From the NCBI GenBank assembly GCA_019695235.1, contig JAIBAI010000026.1, positions 1 to 40,323 on the forward strand: a stretch of DNA of 40,323 nt. Direction: 5' to 3'. Position numbers and translations under genes: made by a program. The notes below the pieces were generated by a model, which searched no databases, was not told the origin of the DNA, and was given only the letters and a program-made list of their open reading frames with translations. How positions within the stretch are numbered: the stretch's first letter is position 1; every line of letters starts with the position of its first letter. The stretch is from Bacteroidia bacterium (lineage in GTDB: Bacteria > Bacteroidota > Bacteroidia > M30B66). This document shows, one piece after another, positions 23,149 through 30,047 of this stretch.

Positions 23149-23922
23149 TCAGAAGTCGAAATTGAACTGCTCAGAAGAAAGTCGGTCGTAAGTTACCTTA
23201 TCAAACTCGTATAAGAGGGCGCGCTTATGTGGTACGCCCTTTTGTTTTTCCGGCAAGGCTTTCAGAAAACCCTTGTTGAGAATTTTACGACGGAAATTTC
23301 TTTTGTCAAGCGAAGTGCCAAGGATTGTTTCGTACACCCGCTGTAATTGTCCTAATGTAAATTTTTCAGGGAGCAATTCAAAGCCAACAGGTTGCATGCG
23401 TAACTTTATCTTAAGACTTTGCCGGGCTTTATCGAGAATTTGGTTGTGGTCGAAAGCCAGTGCAGGAACTTCAGAGACGGGGCACCAAAATGCTTTTCGG
23501 GCAAAAGATGCAGCAGCAGGTTCTGAGTCAGCGATTTTAACCAAAGAGTAATAGGCAACGGTAATCACACGTGCCGTAGGCAACTCTCTTACGGCATTGA
23601 GCCATTGTGCATCAGAAGAACTTTTCACACGATTGGGGTCACCAAAAGCAAAAAATTGTTCCATGTAGATATTTTCAAGGTTGGTTAATTCCTTCAAAAT
23701 TCTTTTTGCAGAGGTGTCTAAATCCTCATTGTCGTCAACGAGATTTCCGGGTAAAGAAAATTTGCGGCTTTCGTGATCAGTCTTTTGCAGATTGCGCTCG
23801 ATCAGTAAAACTTTTAACTCTCCTTCATCAAAACCAAAAATCACACAGTCAACTGAAACGTGTGGATTCAGCCCTGCTTCTGATGATTTGGGCCTTTGCG
23901 GCCAGCTATGTGAGTGCGCCAT
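23149..23922 (-). CDS. NUDIX-domain winged-helix transcriptional regulator (NrtR/AraR-like)
   Basis: 257 residues. The N-terminal NUDIX fold (about 20-155) keeps VSVDCVIFGFDEGELKVLLIER and LPGNLVDDNEDLDTSAKRILKELT, but the Nudix box lacks the REUxEE signature, so hydrolysis is unlikely and it probably acts as a ligand sensor. The C-terminal domain has FTLGQLQRVYETILG..LDKRNFRRKIL, the winged-helix region of this regulator family. Family members respond to ADP-ribose/NAD metabolites (NrtR) or sugars (AraR of Bacteroides). It is divergent from the pfkA cluster, 174 bp apart, so regulating that cluster and itself is a reasonable inference. Confidence 0.9.
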   Translation of the reverse strand: MAHSHSWPQRPKSSEAGLNPHVSVDCVIFGFDEGELKVLLIERNLQKTDHESRKFSLPGNLVDDNEDLDTSAKRILKELTNLENIYMEQFFAFGDPNRVKSSSDAQWLNAVRELPTARVITVAYYSLVKIADSEPAAASFARKAFWCPVSEVPALAFDHNQILDKARQSLKIKLRMQPVGFELLPEKFTLGQLQRVYETILGTSLDKRNFRRKILNKGFLKALPEKQKGVPHKRALLYEFDKVTYDRLSSEQFNFDF

Positions 23923-24066
23923 GTGTTAGGGCTGTAAAACTAATTTATTTTTTTTCAAATTTCATTATGCATTAACAATTCGTCTAAAAACTTGCTAAAG
24001 ATGCCTTCGTTTGGCGAAAAATAATTTTGCATGTTTGGGCTGAAATAATTCGCCCTTAATTTTCAT

Positions 24067-24083
24067 AGTGTTGTTTTAACACT
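24067..24083. promoter_or_regulatory. 17-bp inverted repeat abutting the pfkA -7 box, candidate operator
   Basis: AGTGTT (24067-24072), 5-nt spacer GTTTT, AACACT (24078-24083): a perfect 6-bp inverted repeat directly followed by the -7 box of pfkA. A repressor bound here would block the promoter. The divergent NrtR/AraR-like protein is the obvious candidate, by position only. Confidence 0.4.
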
Positions 24084-24091
24084 TAACTTTG
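24084..24091 (+). promoter_or_regulatory. -7 element (TAACTTTG) of the pfkA cluster
   Basis: Exact TAnnTTTG match ending 5 nt before the pfkA ATG at 24097. With the usual distance to the transcription start, the mRNA would begin at or within a few bases of the ATG. No clear TTG at -33. Another TAATTTTG at 24022-24029 could act as an upstream alternative. Confidence 0.42.
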
Positions 24092-24096
24092 TCAGT

Positions 24097-25089
24097 ATGA
24101 GTTTTGCATCTTCCCCGCTTGAACGCATTGGTGTATTTACCTCCGGCGGAGACGCCCCAGGAATGAATGCGGCTGTACGGGCGGTTGTACGTACATGTTT
24201 GTATTACCAAAAACAGTCAGTAGGTATTTTCAGGGGGTACGACGGGATGATTGCAGGTGATATCAAAGATTTAAGCAGCCGTTCAGTAAGTAATATCATC
24301 CAAAGGGGTGGTACGATTCTCAAATCTGCGCGAAGCCTTGAATTTAAAACAAAGGAAGGTCGCCGGCAGGCGTATGAAAATCTGAAATCAGCCGGTGTTG
24401 ACGCCCTTGTTGCCATTGGTGGTGACGGCACTTTCAGAGGGGCCACTTTGTTTTCATCAGAATATGACATTCCAGTAGTGGGTATTCCGGGAACCATAGA
24501 CAATGACCTGAATGGTACTGATTATACCATTGGTTACGATACAGCTGTGAATACGGCAGCACAAGCCATAGACAAGGTACGGGATACGGCATCATCACAT
24601 AATCGGCTGTTTTTTATTGAAGTGATGGGTCGCGACTCTGGTCAGATTGCACTTAGGGCTTCCATAGCAGCAGGAGCAGAAGCAACGATGATTCCAGAGC
24701 AACCCATGGATATTGACGAGTTGGTTCGGATTCTTGAATCAGGTGCAGAAAGGAAGAAATCGTCAAGCTTAGTGGTAGTAGCCGAAGGAGGCAAACCCGG
24801 GCGTTCGATTGACATCGCCCGTGAAGTAAATGAGCGGTTTAGTTATTACGACACCAAAGTTACCATACTAGGCCATCTTTTGCGAGGTGGTTCACCTACT
24901 GTGGCCGACCGGGTGCTGGCGAGCCGACTTGGCGTTGCAGCAGTAGAAGGCCTTTTGAATAATATTAGTGGGCAAATGGTAGGTATTGTAAACAATCAGA
25001 TTAAATTTACCCCTTTCGGACAAGCGACAACCCAGCATGACGAACTTGAGAAGGAGATGTTACGCATAGCAACTATTTTGTCGGTCTGA
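24097..25089 (+). CDS. pfkA: ATP-dependent 6-phosphofructokinase
   Basis: 330 residues, matching bacterial PfkA. Key motifs: VFTSGGDAPGMNAAVRA (ATP site), IGGDGTFRGA, PGTIDNDLNGTDYTIGYDTA with the catalytic Asp, and EVMGRDSG. The Gly in GGDG and the Gly before TIDND are the residues of ATP-dependent enzymes; pyrophosphate-dependent ones carry Asp and Lys there. It phosphorylates fructose 6-phosphate to fructose 1,6-bisphosphate in glycolysis. It is the first gene of a cluster whose next start is only 5 bp after its stop. Confidence 0.97.
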   Translation: MSFASSPLERIGVFTSGGDAPGMNAAVRAVVRTCLYYQKQSVGIFRGYDGMIAGDIKDLSSRSVSNIIQRGGTILKSARSLEFKTKEGRRQAYENLKSAGVDALVAIGGDGTFRGATLFSSEYDIPVVGIPGTIDNDLNGTDYTIGYDTAVNTAAQAIDKVRDTASSHNRLFFIEVMGRDSGQIALRASIAAGAEATMIPEQPMDIDELVRILESGAERKKSSSLVVVAEGGKPGRSIDIAREVNERFSYYDTKVTILGHLLRGGSPTVADRVLASRLGVAAVEGLLNNISGQMVGIVNNQIKFTPFGQATTQHDELEKEMLRIATILSV

Positions 25090-25094
25090 TCAAT

Positions 25095-26717
25095 ATGCAA
25101 ACAACGTTAGACACTAGTAAGCTATTTCCCACCCTTGAAGGCCTTCAGGCAATAGAAGTGCCCCAAATGATTGAGCAGCGTGAATTTCTTTGCGATGGGC
25201 AACTAATTGAATGGCAAGGGGATGTAACTGATGTATATTCTCCAATCTACTACCATGACAAGGGTCAATGGGAGCGAATCAGATTAGGTTCGTATCCTGA
25301 AATGGGTGCCAAAGATGTAAGCGAAGTGCTTATTAAGGCGCAAAAAGCCTATGGTTTAGGACAGGGATTGTGGCCCACCATGCGATTAGGTGAGCGGCTG
25401 GGTTGTGTTCAGGCTTTTCTTGAAAAGATGCAGGAGAAGAAACAGTTGATAGTCAGCCTGTTGATGTGGGAAATTGGTAAGAACCGGGTGGAATCAGAAG
25501 CAGAATTTGATCGCACAGTTGAGTACATTCACGATACAATTGATGCAGTAAAGCAGCTTGACCGTGACTCAGGCAAGCTTGAACTCTCGCATGGTATTTA
25601 TGCACAAATCCGGCGTGGTCCACTTGGGGTGGTTTTATGCATGGGGCCCTACAATTATCCTTTGAACGAAACCTTTGCAACGTTGATTCCGGCATTAATT
25701 ATGGGCAATGTAGTGATTTTCAGGCCTGCGCGGTTTGGCATTTTACTCATCAGGCCATTATTAGAAGCATTTCGCGATGCATTTCCGGCAGGTGTAATAA
25801 ATATTATATATGGTGACGGTGCACAAACTGCCGGCACTCTGATGCAATCAGGGAAGATTGATGTACTTGCCTTTATTGGGTCGAGTCGCGTGGCCAATAT
25901 TTTAAAAAAACAACACCCCTATTCGAATCGCTTGCGTTCTGTGTTGGGTTTGGATGCAAAAAATCCGGCAATTATTTTGCCGGATGCAGACCTCGAAATT
26001 GCGGTATCAGAATGTATAAATGGCGCCCTTGCGTTTAACGGGCAGCGCTGTACGGCCTTAAAAATAATTTTTGTTCATCGTTCAATTGCCGCACAGTTCC
26101 TGCAAATGTTTTGTCAACGTGTTAGCCTACTTAAAGTTGGAATGCCCTGGGAAGATGACGTAACGATAACCCCACTTCCGGAGCCAGAAAAACCAGCATA
26201 TTTACAGCAATTGGTGGATGATGCACTTGCCAAAGGTGCAACAATTCAAAATGAGCAAGGAGGTAAACACGACAGAAGTGTGGTATACCCTACAGTGCTT
26301 TATCCGGTAAATTCACAAATGCGTATTTACCACGAAGAGCAGTTTGGGCCATTGGTACCTGTGCTTCCTTTTGATGATGTTCAGCAGCCAATTGATTATA
26401 TTGTTGAGAGCAAATATGGGCAACAGGTGAGCATTTTCAGCAATAATCCGGATGTTATTGCCTCACTGATAGACCCACTTGTAAATCAGGTATGTCGTGT
26501 GAATATCAATACAAAATGTCAACGTGGGCCGGATATTTTTCCGTTCAATGGGCGCAAAGATTCAGCCGAAGGCACCCTGAGTGTTCAGGATGCTTTACGT
26601 GTATTTTCAATACGTACCCTGGTGGCAACGCGTGATACCGATGCCAACAAAGCACTGTTTACCAATATTCTGGAGAACAGGAAGTCAAACTTTTTGTCAA
26701 ACGATTATTTGTTTTAA
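25095..26717 (+). CDS. NADP-dependent glyceraldehyde-3-phosphate dehydrogenase-like aldehyde dehydrogenase
   Basis: 540 residues, ALDH superfamily. GPYNYPLNE carries the oxyanion Asn, FIGSSRVAN matches the cofactor-binding turn, and NGQRCTAL carries the catalytic Cys319. At the place of the usual ELGGK motif the sequence is GLDAK (residues 285-289), so the general-base Glu is Gly285, with an Asp two residues later. The sequence resembles the GAPN-type group, which oxidises glyceraldehyde 3-phosphate to 3-phosphoglycerate with NADP and bypasses the phosphorylating GAPDH step. The position right behind pfkA (5 bp) supports a glycolytic substrate, but the exact aldehyde is inferred. Confidence 0.85.
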   Translation: MQTTLDTSKLFPTLEGLQAIEVPQMIEQREFLCDGQLIEWQGDVTDVYSPIYYHDKGQWERIRLGSYPEMGAKDVSEVLIKAQKAYGLGQGLWPTMRLGERLGCVQAFLEKMQEKKQLIVSLLMWEIGKNRVESEAEFDRTVEYIHDTIDAVKQLDRDSGKLELSHGIYAQIRRGPLGVVLCMGPYNYPLNETFATLIPALIMGNVVIFRPARFGILLIRPLLEAFRDAFPAGVINIIYGDGAQTAGTLMQSGKIDVLAFIGSSRVANILKKQHPYSNRLRSVLGLDAKNPAIILPDADLEIAVSECINGALAFNGQRCTALKIIFVHRSIAAQFLQMFCQRVSLLKVGMPWEDDVTITPLPEPEKPAYLQQLVDDALAKGATIQNEQGGKHDRSVVYPTVLYPVNSQMRIYHEEQFGPLVPVLPFDDVQQPIDYIVESKYGQQVSIFSNNPDVIASLIDPLVNQVCRVNINTKCQRGPDIFPFNGRKDSAEGTLSVQDALRVFSIRTLVATRDTDANKALFTNILENRKSNFLSNDYLF

Positions 26718-26729
26718 AAACCAAACTAT

Positions 26730-27599
26730 ATGTTACTAATTGCTGATAGCGGCTCTACCAAATGTGACTGGATGCTCATGCGCGAAAACGAAGAAGCACA
26801 GAGTTTCAGCACCATGGGTTTTAACCCGTATTTTCATAATGAAGCGGTGATATCCAATGCCATCCGCCAAAACAATGAGTTATTGGAGGCCGCCCCTCAG
26901 GTGACGATGCTTTTCTTATACAGTGCTGGCTGTTCATCAAAAGAACTCAAGTTAGTAGTAGAGCGTGCTTTGCGTTCGGTATTTCCCAATGCAAATATTT
27001 ACGTTGACCATGATTTGGTAGGAGCCGCCTTCGCCACCTGGGATGAAACCCCTGCTATCACAGGTATTTTGGGTACCGGCTCGAATTCATGTTATTTTGA
27101 TGGTGATATTGTTAAGCAGGCCAACTCAGGTCTTGGCTTAGGCTATATTCTTGGCGATGAAGGCAGTGGAAGTTATTATGGCAAAATTTTGGTAAAAAAA
27201 TTCCTCAACAATCAGCTTCCGGATGAAATTCATAATTGTTTATCAAGGGAGTATAAGCTTTCACGCGAAACCATTGTTGAGAATGTTTACATGAAGCCAC
27301 ATGCCAATGTTTACCTTGCCTCATTTATGAAGGTGCTTTCTGACAACAAGCAACACACTTGGGTTCAGGAACTGATAAATACAGGTATGGAAACTTTTTT
27401 CAACACACACATCAGCTGCTATAAGAACTACCAAAGGGTTCCGGTTCATTTTATCGGCTCGATAGCTTATCACTTCGAATCGAACCTCCGGCAGGTAGCG
27501 GCTAGAATGGAAATTGAAGCAGGCACCATCATTAAAAAACCTATTTTCGGATTGGTTAATTACCATCTGAAACATCATTTCACCAAGAAAAACAGCTGA
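26730..27599 (+). CDS. BadF/BadG/BcrA/BcrD-type ATPase, probable amino-sugar or hexose kinase
   Basis: 289 residues with the actin-like ATPase fold: phosphate-1 motif LIADSGSTKCDW, connect motif GILGTGSNSC, and LGDEGSGSYYGK. This matches the N-acetylglucosamine-kinase-like branch of the BadF/BadG family; benzoyl-CoA-reductase subunits in the same family carry other features and occur in other contexts. Lying 12 bp after the dehydrogenase and 15 bp before a GH31 glycosidase, it may phosphorylate the sugar that enzyme releases. The exact sugar cannot be read from sequence. Confidence 0.85.
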   Translation: MLLIADSGSTKCDWMLMRENEEAQSFSTMGFNPYFHNEAVISNAIRQNNELLEAAPQVTMLFLYSAGCSSKELKLVVERALRSVFPNANIYVDHDLVGAAFATWDETPAITGILGTGSNSCYFDGDIVKQANSGLGLGYILGDEGSGSYYGKILVKKFLNNQLPDEIHNCLSREYKLSRETIVENVYMKPHANVYLASFMKVLSDNKQHTWVQELINTGMETFFNTHISCYKNYQRVPVHFIGSIAYHFESNLRQVAARMEIEAGTIIKKPIFGLVNYHLKHHFTKKNS

Positions 27600-27614
27600 T
27601 AATTTTCAGTCATC

Positions 27615-30047
27615 ATGCAAGCCATCTCACGCAAAGGTTCTCATCTGAATGAGCCTTTGGGAAACTATATTTCCCATCAGATAAATAATAACAGTTTACG
27701 TATTGAAACTGACAATTCCCGCGTATCAATAACGCTATACCATGCTGGCATCTTCAGGATTCGTATTAGTCGGCCAGACGCGGAATACTGCGGTTTTTCG
27801 TATGCTGTAAATAAGCAACCACTGGAGCATACAAGGTGGGATGTATCAGAAGATGCCAAATGGTTCACGCTTCAAACCAGCGTAATGAGTGTGAAAATTC
27901 AAAAATTTCCCTTGCGTATAGAGGCTTTCGATAGTGCCGGCAACCTGCTTTGCGCAGATGATCCGGCATTTGGCACCAGCTGGCTCGGACAAGAGGTAAC
28001 AACCTATAAATCCTTGCAGCCGGATGAGCGTTTTATCGGATTGGGCGAAAAGACTGGTCCGCTTGACCGCCGTGGTAATGCTTATGTAAACTGGAACACC
28101 GACAATTTTGCCTATGCCGTAGATGCTGATCCAATCTACATGAGTACTCCCTTTTACATGGGTATTCATGGCAAGGTAGTGTATGGTATTTTCTTCGACA
28201 ATAGCTATAAAACCACTTTTAACTTTGGTTGCAGCAATAAGCGTTTCTCCTATTTTCAGGCAGAAGATGGGGAGATGGATTATTACCTGATTCATGCAGA
28301 TAACGTAGCAGGAATACTTGAAAATTATACCTGGCTTACAGGTCGTATGGAACTGCCCCCATTGTGGAGTTTGGGCTTTCAACAGTGCAGGTACAGCTAT
28401 TATCCGTACACCGAGGTTTTAAATGCAGCACGAACCTTCAGGGAGAAGAAAATTCCTGCTGATGTGCTTTATCTTGACATCCATTATATGGATGCCTATA
28501 AAGTATTCACTTGGCATCCGGAGCGATTTCCCGACCCGAAGGGTTTGCTAGATGAGCTGAAAGGGATGGGATTCAAGGTAGTTGTAATTCTTGACCCGGG
28601 CGTAAAAACAGAAGCTGGTTATACAACCTACGAGGAGGGTGTTGCAAAGGGAATGTTTGTTAAGTACCCTGATGGTAGTGAATACAACGGTCAGGTATGG
28701 CCGGGCTGGAGCGCCTTTCCTGACTTCACCCTGGAAGCTGTACGCAGCTGGTGGGGCGAACAGATGAAGGTACTTACTGACAAAGGGATTGAAGGCTTTT
28801 GGAATGACATGAACGAGCCGGCTGCCTGGGGACAACATTTGCCCGATCTGATTGAATTCGGTTATGAGGGCGAAACGGCCACCCATAAACGTGCCAGGAA
28901 CGTTTATGGTATGCAGATGGCCCGTAGTACCTTTGAAGGTGCTAAAAAGCTTTTACCCGGCAAAAGACCTTTTGTACTCACACGTGCCGGATATTGTGGT
29001 ATACAGCGGTATGCAGCGGCATGGACAGGTGATAATGTAAGTACCGATGAGCACATGCTGGCAGGCACACGCCTGATAAATAGCTTAGGTTTAACAGGCG
29101 TTTCTTTTTCAGGAAACGATGTAGGTGGTTTTGCAGGCGAAGCTAGTCCTGATTTATTTGCCCGTTGGATTGCCCTGGGCGCATTTTCACCGTTTTTCCG
29201 TTCTCATTCAATGGTGAACAGCCGCGATTCAGAGCCTTGGTCATTCGGGGAGGAAGTTGAGGACATATCAAGAAATTACATAAAACTAAGGTACAGGCTG
29301 ATACCTTATTTGTATGCTCTATTTTATGAAAGTACCCAAACGGGGATGCCTATAGCGCGCTCACTGGCAATTGATTATACATTTGACAGCCACATTTATC
29401 AGGATGCATATCAGAATCAATTTATGTTTGGTCCGGCCATGCTGGTGATTCCGTTTGAGAGCAATAAAACCTTTCACAAGGCATATTTGCCAGAAGGTTC
29501 ATGGTATAACTTATATACAGACGCATTGCATGAAGGAAGCTCAGAGCTGGTTATTGAAGCCAGCAAAGAGGTGTTACCTGTATTTGTTAAATCAGGGAGC
29601 ATTGTACTGATGCAAGAAGCTGTTGAAAGCCTGCAGTTGGAGGCCTCCGCTGAAACGCTTGAAGTGCATGTGTATACAGGTGCTGACGGTAGTTTCATAT
29701 CATACAAAGATGATGGGAGCAGCTATGAATATCAGAAGGGCTATTACACAAAACGGCAATACAACCTCCAGGGAAACACACTAACAATAGGCAAGGCAGA
29801 AGGCCAATGGCAGCCACAATACAAGCAGATGGTGATTTTCTTACATGGATTACCAGCATCTGTAATGGTGAAAGTTAATGGGATAGATAACGCAATAACT
29901 GAGGGTCCTTACCGCTTCATTGAGCCGATTTCTGACTTTGATCCTTACCATAAACCACCAAAAGCACCGGTACAAATCGAAAATTTAACCAAAATACATC
30001 TCCCCTACCGATTGGATGCTACTCATGTTCAATGGTTTACAAAATAA
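27615..30047 (+). CDS. Glycoside hydrolase family 31 (alpha-glucosidase-type)
   Basis: 810 residues. An N-terminal beta-sandwich (about 1-230) precedes the GH31 catalytic barrel. The nucleophile Asp398 lies in GFWNDMNEPAAWG, the expected acid/base Asp473 in WTGDNVSTDEH, and substrate-binding blocks are VLYLDIHYMDAYKVFTWHPERFPD and FFRSHSMVNSRDSEPW. C-terminal beta domains follow. No signal peptide is seen, so it acts in the cytosol on imported oligosaccharides. The family includes alpha-glucosidases and alpha-xylosidases; alpha-glucosidase is likeliest. It is the last gene of the pfkA cluster, 15 bp after the kinase gene. Confidence 0.93.
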   Translation: MQAISRKGSHLNEPLGNYISHQINNNSLRIETDNSRVSITLYHAGIFRIRISRPDAEYCGFSYAVNKQPLEHTRWDVSEDAKWFTLQTSVMSVKIQKFPLRIEAFDSAGNLLCADDPAFGTSWLGQEVTTYKSLQPDERFIGLGEKTGPLDRRGNAYVNWNTDNFAYAVDADPIYMSTPFYMGIHGKVVYGIFFDNSYKTTFNFGCSNKRFSYFQAEDGEMDYYLIHADNVAGILENYTWLTGRMELPPLWSLGFQQCRYSYYPYTEVLNAARTFREKKIPADVLYLDIHYMDAYKVFTWHPERFPDPKGLLDELKGMGFKVVVILDPGVKTEAGYTTYEEGVAKGMFVKYPDGSEYNGQVWPGWSAFPDFTLEAVRSWWGEQMKVLTDKGIEGFWNDMNEPAAWGQHLPDLIEFGYEGETATHKRARNVYGMQMARSTFEGAKKLLPGKRPFVLTRAGYCGIQRYAAAWTGDNVSTDEHMLAGTRLINSLGLTGVSFSGNDVGGFAGEASPDLFARWIALGAFSPFFRSHSMVNSRDSEPWSFGEEVEDISRNYIKLRYRLIPYLYALFYESTQTGMPIARSLAIDYTFDSHIYQDAYQNQFMFGPAMLVIPFESNKTFHKAYLPEGSWYNLYTDALHEGSSELVIEASKEVLPVFVKSGSIVLMQEAVESLQLEASAETLEVHVYTGADGSFISYKDDGSSYEYQKGYYTKRQYNLQGNTLTIGKAEGQWQPQYKQMVIFLHGLPASVMVKVNGIDNAITEGPYRFIEPISDFDPYHKPPKAPVQIENLTKIHLPYRLDATHVQWFTK

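Follow-up and report, generated by a model that had tools for sequence, protein, structure and literature searches.

In Bacteroides, the L-arabinose repressor BtAraR (BT0354) belongs to the NrtR family (PMC4666351), and XylR (BT0791) is a predicted xylose regulator (PMC3878776, PMC4666351). The NrtR-branch sugar regulators found described in Bacteroidota, AraR and XylR, govern pentose catabolism (PMC4666351, PMC3878776). Among the matches listed for the open-licence PubMed Central literature, no paper was, judging by its title and the start of its abstract, devoted to an NrtR-type protein that regulates glycolysis or starch genes. The present analysis concerns a 40,323-nucleotide stretch of a Bacteroidia bacterium (contig JAIBAI010000026.1, assembly GCA_019695235.1), hereafter the window, which is the entire contig C26 of genome G000 (2.83 Mb, 116 contigs, completeness rated 100%). 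It carries an NrtR/AraR-family regulator divergent from an operon of pfkA, a GAPN-like aldehyde dehydrogenase, a BadF/BcrAD-type sugar kinase and a GH31 α-glucosidase (Table 1). The family, the pocket and the DNA-contact residues of the regulator, the conservation of its operator near and away from it, and the shared targets were established by computation. These sequence comparisons make it likely that the regulator is a repressor of the NrtR/AraR branch which responds to a free sugar, glucose being the best candidate, and controls a regulon leading from α-glucan to glycolysis. The AraR/XylR branch is already known; the targets, the pocket and the partner kinase are new here.

Regulator protein

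Pfam analysis of the regulator revealed matches above cut-off to NrtR_WHD (PF21906, 2.5e-26), AraR_C (PF19368, 2.4e-12) and NUDIX (PF00293, 1.9e-8). The N-terminal Nudix-like domain followed by a C-terminal NrtR winged helix is the architecture of the NrtR family, shared with BtAraR, the best solved relative (E 9e-49), and with SoNrtR and the NAD-metabolism NrtR repressors. The protein is the sole NrtR_WHD match in G000. Its Nudix box reads G-NLVDDN-E-DLDTSAK-R-I-L-K-E-L-T-N-L against the consensus G-x5-E-x7-R-E-U-x-E-E-x-G-U, RILKELTNL replacing REUxEExGU with the loss of two glutamates and the glycine. The box is also degenerate in the NAD-metabolism repressors and in BtAraR, which likewise lacks the two glutamates but keeps the glycine. 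The domain matches and the lost glutamates bear out the initial annotation, which had described an NrtR/AraR-like sensor with a dead Nudix box.

Most of the residues with which BtAraR reads DNA are retained, five of eight being identical (D178, K179, R180, N181, R183) and the remaining three replaced (K184 by R, K204 by H and R205 by K). Arg34, Arg86 and His131, contacts to L-arabinose in BtAraR (PMC4666351), are all kept according to MAFFT, with which phmmer differs in the placement of an insertion around Arg86. Unlike BtAraR, the arabinose pocket of the window regulator has Leu for Phe36 and Asn-Leu for Gly48-Phe49, and 15 residues are inserted past the Arg86 equivalent.

The initial annotation had left the signal as either a sugar or an NAD-derived compound. 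A regulator reading ADP-ribose or NADP, and so tying redox state to upper glycolysis, would be in keeping with membership of the NrtR family and with the GAPN-like enzyme in the operon. However, the contacts to the ADP-ribose phosphates of SoNrtR (residues as listed in PMC4666351) are changed in the window (Lys76 to Leu, Asn43 to Leu and Arg98 to Thr), and the NCBIfam model of ADP-ribose-type NrtR, NF050029, scores the protein at 117, far below its cut-off of 400. Furthermore, in contrast to the NAD-metabolism repressors, no NAD-synthesis gene occurs among the annotated genes downstream of exact operator matches, a set annotated in part and in which NAD genes were not sought singly; the NAD-synthesis regulon that the initial annotation had set against its own proposal thus did not appear. 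A sugar signal is likely, and an NAD-derived one very unlikely.

Predicted operator and conservation of the locus

The divergent gap between the regulator and pfkA (23923-24096, 174 bp) contains a predicted operator which, with its flanks, reads AGTGT-N7-ACACT (24067-24083). The site in the BtAraR-DNA crystal is GTGT-N7-ACAC (PMC4666351, Table 2), and its arrangement, half-sites and spacing are matched in the window. At least one exact match also arose in 38 of 100 shuffled versions of the 40 kb, so a lone match carries little weight by itself, and the case for the operator rests on conservation.

A family sample of ten genomes including G000, the same ten being returned by a gene-order search, holds the pfk-gapN-kinase run in nine; a GAPN match was not found at E 1e-60 in G001, which is 80% complete. 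All nine genomes with the operon carry an exact GTGT-N7-ACAC just upstream of pfkA. The regulator, or a match of 76-80%, is present in eight of the ten, the G006 copy consisting of two contig-end pieces, and only weaker relatives occur in G001 and in G009 (73% complete). In G000, G007 and G008 regulator and pfkA form a divergent pair; in G002-G006 they are not neighbours. The operator is thus kept in five operon genomes with the regulator elsewhere, and also in G009, where the regulator was not found at that completeness. The window and G002-G006 have GH31 after the kinase, as does a second, frame-broken copy in G008; the contigs of G007, G009 and the intact G008 copy stop short of the GH31 position. 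The frame-broken locus (L035, G008:C35) nearly duplicates the regulator-pfk-gapN-kinase locus L027 on another contig of the assembly (G008:C41), has GH31 as well, and is likely an assembly error or strain mixture. A second exact site adjoining the regulator, which hints at autoregulation, is present in G008 and absent in the window.

A class-wide search with the regulator (E 1e-55, 295 sampled genomes) gave matches in 57 genomes, 49 of them outside the family. Twenty of these 49 neighbourhoods were taken with a spread of genera, some of which were repeated, and were picked before their neighbours were viewed. The operon kinase faces the regulator in 14 of the 20, and the exact operator lies in the gap between them in 13 of these 14; in L323 it stands on the other side, before an amylase. 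The kinase is accompanied by GH31 (L315, L316, L320), by an amylase and an MFS transporter (L318, L319, L327), or by GH65 and an HAD protein tentatively named β-phosphoglucomutase-like (L321-L323). Elsewhere its companions are gapA (L324), 6-phosphofructokinase (PFK; L325) or PFK and gapA in either order (L326, L329), and L332, with 55% identity over the alignment, shows PFK-GAPN-kinase in a window-like order. Two loci of one genus (L316 3051-3761, L320 6736-7446) have another NrtR-type regulator gene in tandem, located between that of the regulator and the kinase operon; its product is very divergent, with Tyr for Phe129 and a 5-residue insertion.

A chance adjacency of regulator and operon with a fortuitous palindrome would agree with the frequency of exact matches in shuffled DNA and with the separation of the two in G002-G006. 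Yet the site keeps its place in nine of nine genomes even with the regulator elsewhere, and it turns up again in the class, in the gap that separates regulator and kinase operon, which leaves coincidence a highly improbable explanation. The conserved operon and the recurrence of the operator with it indicate an association exceeding chance, and the functional link claimed by the initial annotation is upheld: linkage or operator is kept in the relatives, as that annotation had proposed to check, and its gene coordinates, divergent layout and intergenic gaps of 5, 12 and 15 bp (pfkA/GAPN-like/kinase/GH31) proved exact.

The position of the operator also suggests its mode of action. The Bacteroidota −7 consensus is TAnnTTTG. 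An exact copy lies one base past the operator in the window, G007, G008 and G009, and in L129, probably of the same genome as L313, the GAPN-kinase operon lies at a distance from the regulator and has GTGTAAAAAATACAC and then directly TATATTTG; in G002-G006, TAnnTTCG follows at 0 or 1 base. Binding at the −7 box should block the polymerase, and repression would therefore be the natural mode of control. The predicted box ends 5 bases 5' of the pfkA ATG (window 24084-24097), and the operon transcript of the window could therefore have next to no leader.

Sensor pocket in the class

Asp or Asn followed by Leu or Ile occupies the Gly48-Phe49 positions in all 14 kinase-linked class regulators, and also in L313, L314, L317, L331 and L036-L040, which are not kinase-linked. 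The 15-residue insertion after the Arg86 equivalent is found in the window clade and in 12 of the 14 kinase-linked rows (absent in L329 and L332), as well as in L313, L314, L317 and L328. The pentose-context row L330, which adjoins an FGGY-family carbohydrate kinase and a transaldolase and stands in for BT0791 in the comparison, retains the AraR-like GGF pocket without the insertion. XylR (BT0791) itself shares with the window regulator the NrtR branch in Bacteroidota and a sugar context, but is predicted to serve xylose genes. In a tree of 41 rows (the window, 38 rows from 36 loci, BtAraR and SoNrtR, with truncated copies excluded), the window groups with its family genomes (98/99), apart from BtAraR, whose place is with the pentose-context row (96/87); the branches of BtAraR and SoNrtR are long, and support for the deep forks is weak. 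A third NrtR-type group (L042-L046) has Ala for Gly47 in the pocket, and two of its regulators (L043, L045) adjoin genes resembling, by eye, thymidylate synthase and dihydrofolate reductase.

The altered pocket bears on the nature of the effector. The same repressor and regulon could act as a flux sensor if the effector were a phosphorylated intermediate such as glucose-6-phosphate or fructose-1,6-bisphosphate: the insertion and the smaller side chains of the window at Phe36 and Phe49 suggest that the ligand could exceed the bulk of arabinose, and pfkA and gapA are among the targets, as is a G6PD/EDD operon of L324 that carries an exact site. The residues that hold phosphate in SoNrtR are lost, however, and the sole effector tested in the branch is a free sugar (PMC4666351), so that a phosphorylated effector appears unlikely, though of some weight. 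Within the favoured reading of a free-sugar signal, the chance that the effector is glucose itself is about even.

Predicted regulon

Exact-site scans indicated that the regulon extends outside contig C26. The sites fetched numbered 47 in G000, 27 in G007, 26 in G008 (24 distinct contexts, two duplicates being dropped) and 31 in G002, and were classed with a simple open reading frame (ORF) caller, upstream meaning within 350 bp of a start. Upstream sites numbered 9, 15, 16 and 16 in G000, G007, G008 and G002, respectively. Seven of the nine in G000 precede sugar genes, namely an MFS sugar transporter, three GH13 amylases, gapA, GlgE and the pfk operon; one GH13 gene is divergent from a starch-binding CBM48/X25 protein and GlgE from a proton pyrophosphatase. 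Unlike BtAraR, the window regulator would therefore serve glycolysis and starch genes (pfkA-gapN-kinase-GH31 at its own locus) and not arabinose genes.

The targets are shared among the genomes. An exact upstream site precedes gapA and an amyA960-type amylase in all four scanned genomes (G000, G002, G007, G008); gapA of G007 was missed by the ORF caller and its site classed as neither upstream nor in a gene, and tblastn places the gene just after the site. Such sites also precede the MFS sugar transporter in G000, G002 and G008, a second pfkA in G002, G007 and G008, a SusA-like cyclomaltodextrinase in G007 and G008, and, in G002, G007 and G008, secreted proteins sharing their N-terminal part with a CBM20 starch-binding protein. 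Further genes with exact upstream sites are metF (methylenetetrahydrofolate reductase) in G002 and G008 and a secreted Ig-domain protein in G002, G007 and G008. The metF sites of two genera (L254, L264) hold an embedded −7 box 14 bp before the called start, with no obvious sugar link. Secreted proteins of three genera (L234, L259, L272) have the motif AQYISRSEPVP near the start and sites near their starts, and Ig-like domains occur in L234.

In the pooled scans, 56 of 129 sites lie upstream, 67 in genes and 6 in neither position. The upstream share exceeds that of the backward pattern (3 of 23; Fisher p 0.005), a control taken from G000 only. TAnnTTTG occurs in the 35-base site context of 14 of the 56 upstream sites, none of the 67 in-gene sites and one of the 6 others, and at eight upstream sites the spacer itself holds the −7 box, as GTG-TAnnTTTG-ACAC (p 6e-6 for the context and 0.001 for the spacer).

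Several observations weigh against the proposed regulon and sensor. AT-rich intergenic DNA, which alone favours TAnnTTTG, accounts for part of the enrichment of the −7 element at upstream sites. In G000 by itself, the upstream share of the exact sites (9 of 47) is not enriched over that of the backward pattern (3 of 23; Fisher p 0.74). Many upstream sites of G002, G007 and G008 precede genes with no known sugar link, among them those for MotA/ExbB, NTP transferase, MscL and PKD or PATR proteins, and these three genomes carry further NrtR-type proteins that might read the same sites. One upstream site of G000 (L122) precedes a cytochrome gene, and another (L071) lies within a hairpin with a run of T behind it and so looks like the terminator of the preceding gene. 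Among the 20 class neighbourhoods, six do not have the kinase opposite the regulator (L313, L314, L317, L328, L330, L331), and Gln replaces Arg34 in four kinase-linked rows whose regulators face kinase, PFK or gapA genes (L323-L326).

The number of sites in G000 (47 vs 23 backward) was considered as proof of a regulon and rejected, the upstream share being no different. As site numbers in G000 are not enriched, the case for the regulon rests on the identity of the target genes and on conservation. The gene after the L071 site has a 46%-identical homologue in G007 (L241) with two exact upstream sites; the secreted protein concerned (L071 1672-3015, L241 1-2395) has no Pfam match in either genome.

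Operon enzymes

The operon kinase has a weak Pfam match to BcrAD_BadFG (24.8 bits vs a cut-off of 31.5) and is clearly related to the solved structures 1zbs, 1zxo, 8oqw, 8ow9, 8oqk and 8ow7 (E 1e-46 to 6e-53). G000 holds one copy of it. No match to ROK (PF00480) or Glk (PF02685) was found in that genome, rated 100% complete, other hexokinase families not being sought. The lack of a ROK or Glk match, together with the glucose-releasing partners GH31, GH13 and GH65, makes glucokinase the simplest reading, and the enzyme is probably the glucokinase of the genome.

An amino-sugar kinase, placing the operon in peptidoglycan or amino-sugar recycling with an amino sugar as the effector, would follow from the names of some of its solved relatives, which are those of N-acetylglucosamine (GlcNAc) or N-acetylmuramic acid (MurNAc) kinases. 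MurK of Tannerella forsythia, placed by its authors in the superfamily to which the operon kinase and PG1100-type kinases (BcrAD/BadFG) belong, is specific for MurNAc, hardly accepts GlcNAc and does not accept glucose (PMC5790795); this specificity adds to the points against a glucose-based scheme. The context of the operon kinase differs from that of the MurK and PG1100-type enzymes, being one of α-glucan use and glycolysis with glucose as the proposed substrate: its annotated partners are GH31, GH13 amylases, GH65, MFS, PFK and gapA, with no amino-sugar gene among them. This, and the missing ROK and Glk matches in G000, make an amino-sugar role rather improbable.

The GH31 protein scores above the Pfam cut-off, its best NCBIfam match being MalA (483 bits vs a cut-off of 800). 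No signal peptide was seen by eye in its sequence, and the enzyme is for this reason probably cytoplasmic.

The dehydrogenase belongs to Aldedh, and its 11 best solved-structure matches are all GAPN. Like the GAPN structures 3prl and 1euh, it has the GQRC cysteine, R140-T141 and the QRGP motif, at the catalytic Cys and substrate-arginine positions of GAPN. Unlike them, it has GLDAK in place of ELGGK, the Glu of which is the general base; Gly occupies this position in the window and in all eight other family genomes with the gene. A related set (L128-L207), the best 80 of at least 567 confirmed loci, spans Bacteroidota, Pseudomonas, Elusimicrobia and others. All 80 retain GQRCT, RT (140-141) and QRGP, and all carry L[G/A]L[D/E]AK at window residues 284-289 (LGLDAK 41, LGLEAK 38, LALEAK 1), the general-base position being Gly in 79 and Ala in one, with Asp or Glu two residues on. 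A large aldehyde dehydrogenase clade across several phyla thus keeps the catalytic Cys and has its acid shifted within this motif.

The initial annotation had ascribed an NADPH-yielding bypass to this enzyme. This role is uncertain: the protein retains the catalytic Cys and lacks the usual general-base Glu, and because substitution by the shifted acid is uncertain, an NADPH-yielding, non-phosphorylating activity is not assured. Among the same best 80 loci the kinase is adjacent only in L128-L130 (E 1e-10), which makes GAPN a poor linkage marker and the kinase the steadier partner.

Table 1. Coordinates of the regulator locus in the window
Feature	Position	Strand	Remarks
NrtR/AraR-family regulator, 257 aa	23149..23922	−	Degenerate Nudix domain and C-terminal winged helix
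Predicted operator GTGTTGTTTTAACAC, GTGT-N7-ACAC	24068..24082	+	Half-sites and spacing of BtAraR-DNA; conserved in the family
Predicted −7 element TAACTTTG (Bacteroidota TAnnTTTG)	24084..24091	+	One base past the operator
pfkA, ATP-dependent 6-phosphofructokinase, 330 aa	24097..25089	+	PFK; PFKA_ATP equivalog above cut-off
GAPN-like aldehyde dehydrogenase, 540 aa	25095..26717	+	GQRC cysteine kept; GLDAK in place of ELGGK
BadF/BcrAD-type sugar kinase, 289 aa; proposed glucokinase	26730..27599	+	
GH31 α-glucosidase, 810 aa	27615..30047	+	

Proposed mechanism and significance

From these observations we infer repression, the effector and the substrate of the kinase as follows. In the absence of ligand, a dimer of the regulator would bind GTGT-N7-ACAC operators adjoining or including the −7 element, and would thereby block RNA polymerase. 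The GH31 glucosidase and the amylases would set free cytoplasmic glucose, maltose being a possible alternative effector. Entry of the free sugar into the former Nudix pocket would make the regulator let go of the DNA, and the resulting derepression would raise the amylases, the sugar transporter, the α-glucosidase, the kinase (proposed glucokinase), PFK, the GAPN-like enzyme and glyceraldehyde-3-phosphate dehydrogenase (GAPDH).

A wider reading, which we put forward tentatively and hold to be somewhat short of probable, is that of a Nudix-derived glucose sensor serving, in much of the class, as the master repressor of sugar entry, with extracellular starch digestion, uptake, a hitherto unrecognised BadF/BcrAD glucokinase, PFK and GAPDH under its control through a single free-sugar signal. 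Its pocket would have been re-tuned from pentose to hexose by the change of Gly48-Phe49 to Asp/Asn-Leu and, in most members, by the 15-residue loop insertion, and its operator would have been built onto or into the −7 box.

A dead Nudix enzyme has apparently been turned into a sugar-sensing switch at the promoters of glycolysis and starch breakdown, and relatives across the class may tune central sugar metabolism alike. If true, core glycolysis would be under a simple glucose switch that couples the breakdown of starch to PFK, to GAPDH and to a candidate glucokinase; this would also suggest a glucose kinase for genomes without ROK or Glk, and would show clearly how the fold of an enzyme can be re-tuned into a sensor.

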